The notes under the pieces: generated by a model
What the model was told of the DNA's origin: nothing
The model's database searches: none
Seen by the model: only the letters and a program-made list of their open reading frames with translations
Program-made: the position numbers and the translations under genes
Virus record (IMG/VR): IMGVR_UViG_3300020457_001375
Span: 1 to 28,485 of that record
Length of the DNA: 28,485 nucleotides
Strand: one strand, 5' to 3'
Source: a virus
In this document: one piece after another, positions 3,124 to 24,154 of the stretch
How positions within the stretch are numbered: the stretch's first letter is position 1
Layout of the letters: every line of letters starts with the position of its first letter

Positions 3124-3152
3124 TTGCACTGTCAACAATTCAATGATATAAT
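3124..3152 (+). promoter_or_regulatory. Sigma-70-like promoter
   Basis: TTGCAC (3124-3129), a 17-base spacer and TATAAT (3147-3152). The predicted start is near 3159, upstream of the gene run that leads into ndhI (3224, 3489, 3611). Confidence 0.75.
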
Positions 3153-3227
3153 ATGCTTATACACGCAGCAGTATACATAACTATGGTTACACTGCTCATT
3201 TTATTCTTTGGATTCTTTGACCCATGA
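3153..3227 (+). CDS. Possible 24-aa hydrophobic peptide
   Basis: A 24-codon frame (start MLIHAAVYITMVTLLILFF) that is a single hydrophobic helix. Its first ATG lies at the edge of the -10 box, so a transcript from that promoter would miss it; an internal ATG at 3183 would give a 14-residue peptide. The stop overlaps the next start (ATGA), which is the main argument that it is real. Low confidence. Confidence 0.35.
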   Translation: MLIHAAVYITMVTLLILFFGFFDP

Positions 3228-3487
3228 CATTTGCAATTCTTGGTGATGCTGCAAACGCATACAACGCTATCAGTTGGCCTGATGCGATACCTTTCCTCAT
3301 TGTTATAGTAGGATTATACTGGTTGAAAAACTGGATTGACTTACGCTTTGCTCGTAAGAAGTCTAAGATTGTTTACAGCGTCAAGATTGTACCTGACTCT
3401 CATATCAATGTAGACCATGCTCACATAGATGAGATAGACCACAATCACATAGAAGGTGATATAAACAATCACCCTAAGACTTGGTAG
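3224..3487 (+). CDS. Membrane protein with histidine-rich tail, 87 aa
   Basis: Function unknown. Residues about 18-38 form one membrane helix (DAIPFLIVIVGLYWLKNWI), then comes a basic stretch (RFARKKSK), then a tail with six histidines alternating with acidic residues (DSHINVDHAHIDEIDHNHI and following). The tail could bind a metal; that is an inference from composition. It lies under the 3124-3152 promoter, two genes before ndhI, so it may act with the ndhI product, but nothing in the sequence proves this. Confidence 0.7.
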   Translation: MTFAILGDAANAYNAISWPDAIPFLIVIVGLYWLKNWIDLRFARKKSKIVYSVKIVPDSHINVDHAHIDEIDHNHIEGDINNHPKTW

Positions 3488-20380: not shown

Positions 20381-20388
20381 TATTTATG
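20381..20388 (-). promoter_or_regulatory. Late promoter, minus strand (gp4-gp53 operon)
   Basis: On the minus strand the bases read CATAAATA, 27 bases before the gp4 ATG. Its CAT (20386-20388) is the complement of the tube-gene start codon, mirroring the plus-strand promoter. Confidence 0.78.
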
Positions 20389-21075
20389 GCAACAACTGCC
20401 ACTGGATTACAAAGTTTTCTAAAAAGAGTAGGTAACTCTGGTGGTATATCAGCATCCAATTTATACAGGTTCGATATACAACCATCTGAAAAACTGAACA
20501 AATATTTTACGGACAACATAGGTTTTGACAGTTCTAATCAAGACCTAGTGCTATTTTGTAATGAGATACAGTTGCCTGGCGTAACATACTCAGCAACTGA
20601 TGTTAAGTCAGTTCACAAGGGTATCACACAAAAGATAGCATCTGCCAAGGTATACAACGAATTAGATGTTAGTTTCTTCATGGATGCTGATTCAACACCA
20701 TTACTATTCTTCCGTGCATGGCAAGATTTTACAATGGGTACTAAGTCTACCAGTGGAGACTACGTAGGTGATTTTCCTACAGGTAGAACACAAGCATTTG
20801 CTATGAACTATTACAATGACTATGCATGTGAACTTGACATAGTAAAGTTAGAGAAGTATAATGAGAAATTAGCGAAGGAAAATAAGAAAGGCGAACCTAA
20901 GTATAGAGAATCTTGGAAAGCGAGACTATATAAAGCATACCCTTACACTGTCTCATCTATACCATATTCCGCAGGTCCTGCACAACTTGTCAAGGTCAGC
21001 GTTGGTTTTTACTATGAGTACAGTCAACTAGGACAATTACAACCACCCTTCCAAAATAGAGTTACTAGCAATTAA
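20386..21075 (+). CDS. Tail-tube-family protein (gp19/gp54-like), 229 aa
   Basis: A beta-rich protein of the tail-tube family. Segments: SNLYRFDIQPSEKLNKYFTD, VLFCNEIQLPGVTYSATDVK, ELDVSFFMDADSTPLLFFRA and a C-terminal YPYTVSSIPYSAGPAQLVKV strand, as in the T4 gp19 family. It is longer than gp19 (163) and lies at the head of a hub operon, so a tube-initiator role like gp54 is likely. The order tube, chaperone with frameshift, tape-measure-like protein is that of many myoviruses. A separate gp19 is expected elsewhere in the genome; that is inference. Confidence 0.7.
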   Translation: MATTATGLQSFLKRVGNSGGISASNLYRFDIQPSEKLNKYFTDNIGFDSSNQDLVLFCNEIQLPGVTYSATDVKSVHKGITQKIASAKVYNELDVSFFMDADSTPLLFFRAWQDFTMGTKSTSGDYVGDFPTGRTQAFAMNYYNDYACELDIVKLEKYNEKLAKENKKGEPKYRESWKARLYKAYPYTVSSIPYSAGPAQLVKVSVGFYYEYSQLGQLQPPFQNRVTSN

Positions 21076-21078
21076 ATT

Positions 21079-21780
21079 ATGCCATTACCTGAAATTGTTA
21101 CGCCAACGTATACGTTGACGGTGCCTTCTACAAAAAAGAAACTGAAGTACAGACCATTCCTTGTTAAGGAACAGAAAGTATTGATACTAGCATTAGAGAA
21201 CAAAGACCAAGAACAGATACTTGATGCAGTTATTACAGTATTAAAAAATTGTATAATAACTAAGACTAAAATAGAGGATTTATCCTTATTTGATTTAGAA
21301 TTTATATTCTTACAGATACGTGCTAGGTCAATCAGTGAAGAAATTGAACTAAAGGTTACCTGTGCAGATGATGGTCAAACAGAAGTTGATGTACGATTCA
21401 TGGTAGATGATGTTAATGTTCACTTTCCTAAAGGACATGAGAGACTCATTGATTTGACTGATGAAATCAAAGTAGAGATGAGATATCCAGACCTAGAATA
21501 CTTCTCCACAGTAAACTTTGGTGACGCTGCAAAGATAGACCCATATGAATTAGTAGGCAAGTGCATCAAGAGAGTATATGTAGGAGAGGATGCCAACGAT
21601 GATTTTACTGCAGAAGAAGCAAAAGAATGGGTTGAGAAACTTACAAGTGAACAGTTTGATAAGATACAGAACTTCTTTAACACCATGCCTACATTACGCC
21701 ACGAAATAAAAGTCAAGAATCCTAAGACAAAGGTAACCAATCCTGTAGTCATAGAGGGTCTTGCTGATTTTTTCGCATAG
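21079..21780 (+). CDS. gp26: Baseplate hub / tail-assembly chaperone gp26, 233 aa
   Basis: A T4 gp26-type baseplate protein. It starts MPLPEIVTPTYTLTVPSTKK and has the signature KYRPFLVKEQKVLILALENK, then CIITKTKIEDLSLFDLEFIF and IRARSISEEIELKVTC, with C-terminal helices. The order next to a tape-measure-like gene fits a tail-assembly chaperone. It ends ADFFA-stop, and the last codons carry a perfect slippery site (T-TTT-TTC) followed by a hairpin, so a minority of ribosomes may shift -1 to make a 296-residue fusion (see 21768-21968). The start lies three bases after the upstream stop. Confidence 0.9.
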   Translation: MPLPEIVTPTYTLTVPSTKKKLKYRPFLVKEQKVLILALENKDQEQILDAVITVLKNCIITKTKIEDLSLFDLEFIFLQIRARSISEEIELKVTCADDGQTEVDVRFMVDDVNVHFPKGHERLIDLTDEIKVEMRYPDLEYFSTVNFGDAAKIDPYELVGKCIKRVYVGEDANDDFTAEEAKEWVEKLTSEQFDKIQNFFNTMPTLRHEIKVKNPKTKVTNPVVIEGLADFFA

Positions 21781-21798
21781 CCCTCTTCCATGAGGGCT
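21768..21798 (+). promoter_or_regulatory. Predicted -1 ribosomal frameshift signal in gp26
   Basis: The slippery heptamer T-TTT-TTC (21768-21774) is in the gp26 reading frame. After a spacer of four to five bases comes a seven-pair hairpin, AGCCCTC (21779-21785) / GAGGGCT (21792-21798), that contains the gp26 stop codon. The -1 frame is open from here to 21968. Confidence 0.8.
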
Positions 21799-21968
21799 TG
21801 ATGACTTTTTATCAAACCAATTTTTCTCTTGTTCAGCACCATAAATACTCTTTGACTGATATAGAAAATATGATTCCATGGGAACGAGATGTATACGTGA
21901 ATTTGTTATCTGCTCATCTACAAAAAGAAAGAGAGCAACTAGAAGAACACAAACGTAAACGACGCTAA
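21774..21968 (+). CDS. Frameshift extension of gp26 (64 codons), GT-like chaperone domain
   Basis: Reading -1 after the slippery site gives RIALFHEGLMTFYQTNF, then a helical part (YSLTDIENMIPWERDVYVNL) and a charged tail (KEREQLEEHKRKRR). The IPWERDVYV motif resembles the T-type domain of tail-assembly chaperones in other tailed phages. The fusion would be 232 plus 64, or 296 residues. A separate 32-residue product from ATG 21870 is possible through the late promoter at 21840, but it would lose half of the coherent frame. The stop overlaps the next start (TAATG). Confidence 0.72.
   Translation, partial: RIALFHEGLMTFYQTNFSLVQHHKYSLTDIENMIPWERDVYVNLLSAHLQKEREQLEEHKRKRR
21840..21847 (+). promoter_or_regulatory. 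Possible late promoter inside the frameshift extension
   Basis: CATAAATA, 23 bases before ATG 21870 and about 120 before ATG 21968. It could drive the 728-residue gene, or it may be a coding coincidence (it encodes HKY in the extension frame). Confidence 0.5.
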
Positions 21969-24154
21969 TGTCATCTGAAATACACATAGACTCAGAAGTC
22001 CTCACCGCTGTAAGCGATGGGTTCTCTGCTGCTATGGAAAATTTCATAGAGACAGACTTTCAGTATTTTCAATATTTAAGAAACAGACAGAGATATTACG
22101 TAGGCGGTAGGTCAGAAGAAGTAAAGACAGTTAACCCTGCAACAAAATTTTTCGAGAAAAAACCAAAAGCAAAAGAAGGGGGTAGGAGACCAAATGGAAG
22201 ACCTTTTAATATTCCAATAGGTGTACCATCAAGGGTACCATTTGATATACCATCAATTGCAATTCCAGAAAGGAAACCCGTAACTGTCGATGATCCAGCA
22301 AATGATATTAAAGATTTCATACGTCAACCACAACCAGAGGATGTAAATGTAGGTGTACCAGAGACACAACCACAACCTGTAACGCCTGACGTAACAACAC
22401 CGTTGCCTGGTGAAATTAATAATGAAGTAGAGATTCCAAATTTTGTAGTCCCAGAAAAGAAGACAGAGGATGTATACCAAGGACCTAACTTAGGAGATAG
22501 AATTCTTGAAGGTATTGGAACTAACCTTCAGAATGCTCTAGGTTTTTCTCTTGCAGCTGGTTTAGTTGGATTTGAATTAATCAAAACGTTGGGAAGGGGT
22601 CTCTTACCAGGTTATGCAAAAGGTGGTATAGTCCGAACTCCAACAAAGGCGTTGATAGGTGAAGCAGGTCCTGAAGTCGTAATCCCGATGGGATTGTTTG
22701 GTCAAGTCATAGAGGCGGTTTATAGAGAAGGTGCATCTGCACTTATATCATCATCTATGGGTTTCCTTGCTAAGTTGCCATCATCGACAGCAAAAGCAAC
22801 TGTACTTGCAGAAGCAAATAGATTGAAAGGTATCTTTGGTATCTCTAAGATGGAGGTACCAGAGGGAGATTTAGGACTTAAATCACCTCTAGCACCTATA
22901 AAAGTAGGTGGCAGCGGTAATGCTGCAGTATTTGTAGGTGCACCAAAACAAGAGCAAGGTGGTGGTGGAGGAGGTGGACTCCCTAGATTTATAAGAAAAG
23001 CACTAGCGAAAGCATTTAAGAAAGGTTGGAAAGCACTAAGAAAAACACCTGTAGGTAAGTTTATCAGACGAGGTAGAATTGCTGCAAAGAAAGCAAGGAA
23101 AGCAATAGGTAAAACTATATCAAAGGTAGGTAGTAAAGTAGGTAGAAAAGGTGCAGCAAAAGCAGCACAGAAGGGTGGTTTAAAATTAGCAGGAAAGATT
23201 GGTGCTAAAGGACTAGGTGCACTACCTTTAGTAGGAAATGTATTTGACTTGGCATTTGCAGCAAAAAGATTTGCTGATGGTGATGCAGTTGGTGGTTTAT
23301 TATCATTAGGAAGTGCGATACCTGTATTAGGATGGGGTGTTGCAGCATTAGATGTTGCTAGAACTACTGGTGCATTTGATGGAGGACCTTTTGGTAGAAA
23401 GTCAAAAGACCAGAAGAAAGTAGATGCAACAAAGTTTGCGTCTAACACAAAAACTGAGATACAAACACCTGATCCTACACGTGGTGGCAGTATCATACTT
23501 AACCCATCTACCATGAAGGCATGGTCAAGAGCAGTAGCAGCTGCAGCAAAAGATGGCATAGACCTTACACAGGCAGTTACTTCATCATATAGAAGTCCTG
23601 CTGATCAACAAGCATTGATTGATAGAGCAGCAGCGGGTGATCCAAACGTAATGACTCCTGCACCTGTAGGAAAATCACCACATGGTCAAGGTTGGGCGAT
23701 AGATATTAACTTCTATTCTCCTGCTAATGAGTGGATGAGGAACAATGGTGGTAAGTATGGTTTCAAATGGCAAGGTGAGAACGACCCCGTACACTTTGAT
23801 TTCTGGAATAATGAACCAAATGATAAGTGGTTGCAACCTGGCAATAGAGATTGGATACCAAACGCTACTGACCCACAAGATAAGTCAAGTTCTAGTTTAG
23901 TTACTAATGAGTTAATGGCAAAAGCACCTGACATTAGTGGCGGTAGAGAAATATTAAATGACACTCCTGTTACTCAAGGTGGTAAAATGTTTGGCGAGAC
24001 TGGTGAGGTCGTGCGGTTGCCAGTTCCTATACCCATACCAAAAGCAATACCAATTATGGTTGGTGGTGTAAATAGTGATGATGGTAGAAGTCATCTTATT
24101 ATTGATGTATTCGGTAAAGGTACTAAGACTTCTCGCGAGGTAGTTAGCGTATGA
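21968..24154 (+). CDS. Tape-measure/hub-like structural protein with M15 peptidase domain, 728 aa
   Basis: Layout: residues 1-60 helical; 60-170 Pro-rich linker; a hydrophobic part (about 185-215); YAKGGIVRTPTKALIGEAGP continuing EVVIPM (218-241), a motif typical of tail tape-measure proteins; a Gly run (327-335) and a Lys/Arg/Ala-rich segment (336-400); then an M15-type peptidase domain with YRS (541), SPHGQGWAIDI (H572, D579) and DPVHFDF (D606, H609). These are the zinc ligands and base of L-Ala-D-Glu or D-Ala-D-Ala peptidases, so it probably opens the host wall at DNA entry. It follows the frameshift chaperone, the normal tape-measure place. Coupled by TAATG and ATGA. Confidence 0.82.
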   Translation: MSSEIHIDSEVLTAVSDGFSAAMENFIETDFQYFQYLRNRQRYYVGGRSEEVKTVNPATKFFEKKPKAKEGGRRPNGRPFNIPIGVPSRVPFDIPSIAIPERKPVTVDDPANDIKDFIRQPQPEDVNVGVPETQPQPVTPDVTTPLPGEINNEVEIPNFVVPEKKTEDVYQGPNLGDRILEGIGTNLQNALGFSLAAGLVGFELIKTLGRGLLPGYAKGGIVRTPTKALIGEAGPEVVIPMGLFGQVIEAVYREGASALISSSMGFLAKLPSSTAKATVLAEANRLKGIFGISKMEVPEGDLGLKSPLAPIKVGGSGNAAVFVGAPKQEQGGGGGGGLPRFIRKALAKAFKKGWKALRKTPVGKFIRRGRIAAKKARKAIGKTISKVGSKVGRKGAAKAAQKGGLKLAGKIGAKGLGALPLVGNVFDLAFAAKRFADGDAVGGLLSLGSAIPVLGWGVAALDVARTTGAFDGGPFGRKSKDQKKVDATKFASNTKTEIQTPDPTRGGSIILNPSTMKAWSRAVAAAAKDGIDLTQAVTSSYRSPADQQALIDRAAAGDPNVMTPAPVGKSPHGQGWAIDINFYSPANEWMRNNGGKYGFKWQGENDPVHFDFWNNEPNDKWLQPGNRDWIPNATDPQDKSSSSLVTNELMAKAPDISGGREILNDTPVTQGGKMFGETGEVVRLPVPIPIPKAIPIMVGGVNSDDGRSHLIIDVFGKGTKTSREVVSV

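Follow-up and report, generated by a model that had tools for sequence, protein, structure and literature searches.

A predicted -1 frameshift signal that would join gp26 to gp51 in T4-like cyanophages and their relatives

The lambda proteins gpG and gpGT are produced through a -1 shift near the end of a short chaperone gene, which yields a minor long form, and this gene lies between a tube gene upstream and a tape-measure-like gene downstream. Vladimirov, Gautam and Davidson (2022; Virology 566:9-15) reportedly identified the tail chaperones of T4-like phages. A later paper (PMC12846349) names their study as the source for poly-T sites of shifting in the tail chaperone genes of T4-like phages, and a -1 shift at a poly-T motif is predicted for the myovirus tail chaperone of Pakpunavirus and Vandenendeviridae (PMC12846349). 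A second citing paper describes some T4-like phages as having a short gene and a longer fused gene (PMC10885494). The first-pass annotation of the DNA studied here knew of no proven case in T4-like phages; for prediction this is outdated, as citing papers credit Vladimirov et al. (2022) with the T4-like tail chaperones and their poly-T sites, whereas for experiment it stands, no experimental proof having been found. Our literature search, which covered few subscription papers, found no description of the signal in cyanophages. Frameshifts of this kind are therefore known, and one has been proposed before for T4-like phages. The present analysis adds a detailed map of the signal, in which the Shine-Dalgarno (SD)-like element and the lineage-specific hairpins described below are the parts most likely to be new.

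The DNA analysed, hereafter the window, is IMG/VR record IMGVR_UViG_3300020457_001375 (positions 1 to 28,485), a 28,485-nt contig of an uncultivated marine cyanophage. Its relevant features are as follows.

20386-21075, + strand: tail-tube-like gene, 229 aa, upstream of gp26 (PF23849 Phage_TTP_2, 8.2e-17; phrog_45 tail tube, 2e-31)
21079-21780, + strand: gp26 ORF, putative short tail-assembly chaperone form, 233 aa (PF12322 T4_baseplate, 5.9e-65; phrog_150, 4.2e-73)
21754-21758, + strand: SD-like GAGGG, proposed 5' frameshift stimulator, 9 nt upstream of the heptamer
21768-21774, + strand: U UUU UUC, the slippery heptamer, with two Phe codons in tandem in the gp26 frame, conserved in relatives
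21774-21968, + strand: gp51 domain of 64 aa in the -1 frame, appended to gp26 by the proposed shift (phrog_634, phrog_150)
21778-21780, + strand: 0-frame stop TAG of the short form (read from the sequence)
21779-21798, + strand: 7-bp hairpin AGCCCTC-TTCCAT-GAGGGCT, proposed 3' frameshift stimulator (fold, stem score)
21801-21803, + strand: lineage-specific ATG, in frame with the -1 tail, at which a 55-aa gp51 might start independently
21968-24154, + strand: gene after the gp51 tail, 728 aa (M15/VanY peptidase; weaker tape-measure similarity)

The ORF at 21079-21780 is assigned by its profile match to T4 gene 26 (PF12322), and its product is about 69-70% identical to gp26 of the nearest named phages, P-HM2, P-HM1 and MED4-213. 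Its 3' end reads GAG GGT CTT GCT GAT TTT TTC GCA TAG. The first-pass annotation had proposed at this end a perfect in-frame T-TTT-TTC, a seven-pair hairpin holding the stop codon and an open -1 frame, and all three are borne out. The heptamer lies in frame at 21768-21774; the stem is perfect, begins 4 nt past the heptamer and shares two bases with the stop codon; and translation of the -1 frame from 21774 yields 64 residues, IPWERDVYV included, and ends at TAATG, in which its stop overlaps the start of the next gene. The claimed gene order of tube, chaperone and tape measure stands for the tube-like gene upstream and only in part for the gene downstream. The best match of its 728-aa product, which has an M15/VanY peptidase domain, is a phage 'peptidase' family, and tape-measure families score lower among the profile matches; the product is a putative tape measure of weak similarity.

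From these sequence features and the comparisons below, we consider it very probable that a -1 programmed ribosomal frameshift of the lambda G/GT kind yields a gp26-gp51 fusion. The window resembles lambda in the site of the predicted shift, near the end of a putative short chaperone gene with a minor long form, and in having a tube-like gene upstream and a possible tape-measure gene downstream, but it differs in having U UUU UUC, a protein of the T4 gp26 family, an SD element and a simple hairpin. The poly-T shift of Pakpunavirus and Vandenendeviridae uses a GTTTTT motif and belongs to a different phage family. The SD-like element joins the heptamer and the hairpin, which makes the layout three-part and dnaX-like: in Escherichia coli dnaX, too, an internal SD lies about 10 nt upstream of a homopolymer-type heptamer, with a hairpin a few nucleotides downstream. 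Unlike dnaX, the window's heptamer is built of U instead of A and the shift would give the longer product.

To place the signal among related phages, relatives of the window's gp26 were gathered from IMG/VR and from named phages, giving 261 unique loci that form 81 clusters below about 70% identity. TTTTTTN, mostly TTTTTTC or TTTTTTA, occurs in frame within the last few gp26 codons of 258 of the 261, and the three loci without it are one Kuttervirus and two Vibrio phages. The codon phase is always xxT TTT TTN. Among other Phe-[Phe/Leu] pairs in the same genes, 50 of 858 are slippery. All 258 have T as the base before TTT, where synonymous usage predicts 175.6, and all use TTT for the first Phe codon against a background of 74%. 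Within the window itself, T TTT TTN occurs a single time across 11 ORFs (3,720 codon positions), which hold no other tandem-slippery heptamer at a distance of 30 codons or less from a stop. The alignment of cyanophage gp26 ends that had been suggested as a check places the heptamer near-universally in Kyanoviridae-type loci. Relatives lacking the slippery site or carrying -1 stops had been named in advance as counter-evidence; TTTTTTN is kept in 258 of 261, and the -1 frame is open. A chance heptamer or a sequencing error is ruled out by this conservation.

GGAGG or GAGGG sits 9-10 nt ahead of the heptamer in most loci, and an internal SD stimulates bacterial -1 frameshifting at a spacing of 9-14 nt (PMC5009743). 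Over 81 representatives, mean pairing with the anti-SD shows a sharp, conserved peak at -15 to -10; it reaches -6.96 kcal/mol, compared with -5.21 kcal/mol under synonymous randomisation (Wilcoxon 3e-9, overstated, as is the next p-value, by treating representatives as independent). In a control region 30 codons upstream, pairing is the same as randomised (-2.48 versus -2.45). GAG is chosen over GAA in 51 of 72 cases against a background of 27% (naive p 2.7e-14), and the Leu codons before the element end in G. The SD-like element is thus kept by synonymous codon choice, and owes its strength to the preference for GAG and for Leu codons ending in G. It did not feature in the first-pass annotation.

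On the other side of the heptamer, hairpins start 4-5 nt past it in three lineages and differ in sequence at the same spot: the window's clade has GCCCTC/GAGGGC, the P-SSM2 type an 11-bp AGTATGGCTCA/TGAGTCATACT, and part of the TTTTTTA-type clade either GGACTATC/GATAGTCT or GGGCTCTC/GAGAGCCT. In the window, 41 nt comprising the hairpin and its flank fold at -16.3 kcal/mol (z -4.2), and the stem score over 44 members of the window's clade is 16.9 versus 7.3 when shuffled. Covariation of the P-SSM2-type hairpin is 0.77 paired, and column shuffles give at most 0.729; it is not clearly above column shuffles in the window's clade, where it is 0.84 and shuffles reach 0.836, nor in that of TTTTTTA (0.74 versus 0.744). 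Heptamer-bearing Methylophilales-type loci and one further locus (L037) either lack the hairpin or have one that scores no higher than shuffled sequence. Because some heptamer-bearing lineages are without an evident hairpin, the hairpin looks lineage-specific, and the heptamer together with the SD looks general. The related loci would offer a clean natural series for the study of bacterial -1 stimulation, with a constant slippery site, an SD-like element, and hairpins that vary or are missing by lineage. A role of the hairpin as terminator found no support: no T tract follows the stem and a terminator scan did not list it.

The -1 frame beyond the gp26 stop is coding. In 261 of 261 loci it continues without interruption for 161-200 nt beyond the gp26 stop, where locus length allows judging, and entropy just past the stop peaks at third positions. 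The window's tail matches phrog_634, 'baseplate hub assembly catalyst' (1.4e-26), and also phrog_150, the profile of the gp26 family, in its C-terminal part (positions 237-279), which indicates that phrog_150 includes fused members. We pooled dN/dS in three clades over the 7 codons that separate the gp26 stop from the site of the window's ATG. The -1 frame gives 0.26, 0.20 and 0.32 without stops, while the remaining two frames give 0.99 to 4.4 with many stops over the same codons. Purifying selection thus acts on the -1 frame ahead of the window's ATG. Ahead of the conserved NF motif, some ATG in the -1 frame is present in 160 of 249 loci, GTG or TTG alone in 25, and none of the three in 64. 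Given the dN/dS of 0.20-0.32 before the ATG and these 64 startless loci, the -1 ORF codes from the shift site without need for a start of its own.

A natural counterpart of the predicted product exists in phage T2. Residues 14-244 of the 249-aa T2 gp51 align to the predicted fusion (hhalign E 1.2e-13), nearly along its whole length, and the alignment crosses the gp26-gp51 junction and reaches the IPWER region; T2 gp26 aligns to the short form only. This homology makes T2 gp51 a counterpart, in one ORF, of the 296-aa fusion predicted here. Both parts of the fusion are homologous to the T4 gp26/gp51 family (PF12322, phrog_634, phrog_150 and T2 gp51 against the fusion profile). Unlike in the window, the T2 pair consists of separate genes on opposite strands, T2 gp26 is heptamer-free, and no shift is needed. 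These alignments indicate that T2 uses two genes for what window-type phages would make from one, which fits the arrangement of a short gene plus a fused gene described in the citing paper above (PMC10885494). The T4 gp26/gp51 pair is thereby tied to the frameshift arrangement.

The fold predicted for gp26 may be that of a tail chaperone. An AlphaFold2 model built from the IMG/VR loci (pLDDT 86.5) has as its two best Foldseek matches in the PDB chains of the HK97 tail chaperone 2ob9, at a weak E of 0.89-1.1. Its N-terminal domain matches the HK97 chaperone with a VIA Z of 7.7 over 84 residues, which is under 8, and 3fgx, an uncharacterised Bacillus protein, ties with the HK97 chaperone as a match. 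A sequence search of gp26 against solved structures returned weak unrelated matches only. The model is suggestive of a tail-chaperone fold for the short form.

We infer that one start would give rise to two tail-assembly chaperones in the following way. A majority of ribosomes would stop at TAG 21778 and release gp26 of 233 aa. In a minority, the Phe-tRNAs on UUU UUC would slip back by one base onto UUU UUU, and these ribosomes would bypass the stop and continue into the 296-aa gp26-gp51 fusion (...ADFF-RIALFHEGLM...). The SD-like sequence 9 nt upstream would aid the slip by pairing with 16S rRNA, as would the hairpin 4 nt downstream. As with lambda G/GT, the short form would serve as a coat on the tape-measure protein, and the long form, the rarer of the two, would recruit tube subunits via its gp51 domain. 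On this reading, strong comparative evidence places the abundant marine T4-like cyanophages (Kyanoviridae), together with their relatives, among the phages that probably use the conserved tail-chaperone frameshift. The reading would also account for the annotation of cyanophage gp51 as a tiny gene with inconsistent starts, and cyanophage gp51 entries may often be mis-started.

Two of the other readings concern ATG 21801, which was not mentioned, with its GAGGG, in the first-pass annotation. In the first, compatible with frameshifting, the fusion and a free 55-aa gp51 from this ATG would both be made, for a total of three proteins. A standalone gp51 is possible in the window's clade because GAGGG, part of the 3' arm of the hairpin, stands 4 nt before ATG 21801, and the ATG is kept in 37 of 44 clade members. 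The ATG is absent, however, from the other 7 and from many other lineages, and the methionine position differs between clades. Moreover, the SD bases double as the hairpin 3' arm and are still G-rich in the subclade that lost the ATG, so that the hairpin alone can explain GAGGG. We regard this combined reading as unlikely. Its explicit form, in which gp26, a fusion by dnaX-like, SD-stimulated shift and free gp51 from the SD inside the hairpin all come from the locus, appears likewise unlikely; if it were true, the relative amounts of the three products would depend on one and the same RNA element, and lineages would gain and lose the third.

The second reading dispenses with the frameshift: gp51 would be a separate small gene translated from ATG 21801 by reinitiation or coupling, with ribosomes that terminate at TAG melting the hairpin that hides its SD. 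The GAGGG before the ATG, the listing of gp51 as its own gene by annotators in P-SSM2 and others, and the 160 of 249 loci with some -1 ATG ahead of the NF motif are in line with it, but the start is not conserved: its position, where present, depends on the clade, and 64 loci have none. In P-HM2, the public gp51 annotation (L081:3289-3381) is a 30-aa fragment that starts inside the conserved domain. Purifying selection on the -1 frame already acts between the stop and the ATG position, T2 gp51 is a fusion, and a separate gene leaves the conserved heptamer, its codon phase and the SD 9 nt before it unexplained. We hold this reading very improbable, and as the sole explanation a purely separate gp51 gene is rejected on the startless loci and the pre-ATG selection. 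RNA polymerase slippage on the T run, which would give mixed mRNAs and a fusion without ribosomal frameshifting, has the T6 run at the junction and known cases on A or T runs in bacteria to recommend it (PMC5009743), but the reviewed runs are of ~9 A or T and those here mostly of 6 T, the fixed codon phase is something that slippage does not require, and the SD-like element acts on ribosomes, so that we judge it extremely unlikely.

Several divergent lineages depart from the arrangement proposed for the window. Methylophilales-type loci such as L083 carry an AGT TTT TTT TAA site (8 T) and no clear hairpin, and stimulation, even transcriptional slippage, may therefore differ there. In Ackermannviridae, the gp26 ends (L091:3200-3260, L335, L336, L337, L338 and L339) are without U UUU UUN, yet they share a strongly conserved sequence, ATT TTC ATY TAA TNTTTGAAA, and their -1 frame codes for a gp51-like tail (LSYFVMCDELK...MPWHLD). 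TAATG is present at the gp26 end in Agtrevirus and Limestonevirus; Kuttervirus, the Klebsiella phage and Bue1 lack an ATG at this place and may therefore use a different shift or a rare start. A Vibrio phage gp26 used as query gave no match among viral contigs. In Vibrio phages K469 and K361 (L087 and L092, near 3150-3230), the gp26 end is without a tandem slippery heptamer, and a -1 tail is present whose opening ATG overlaps the stop (TAATG), which suggests that these phages switched to coupled translation.
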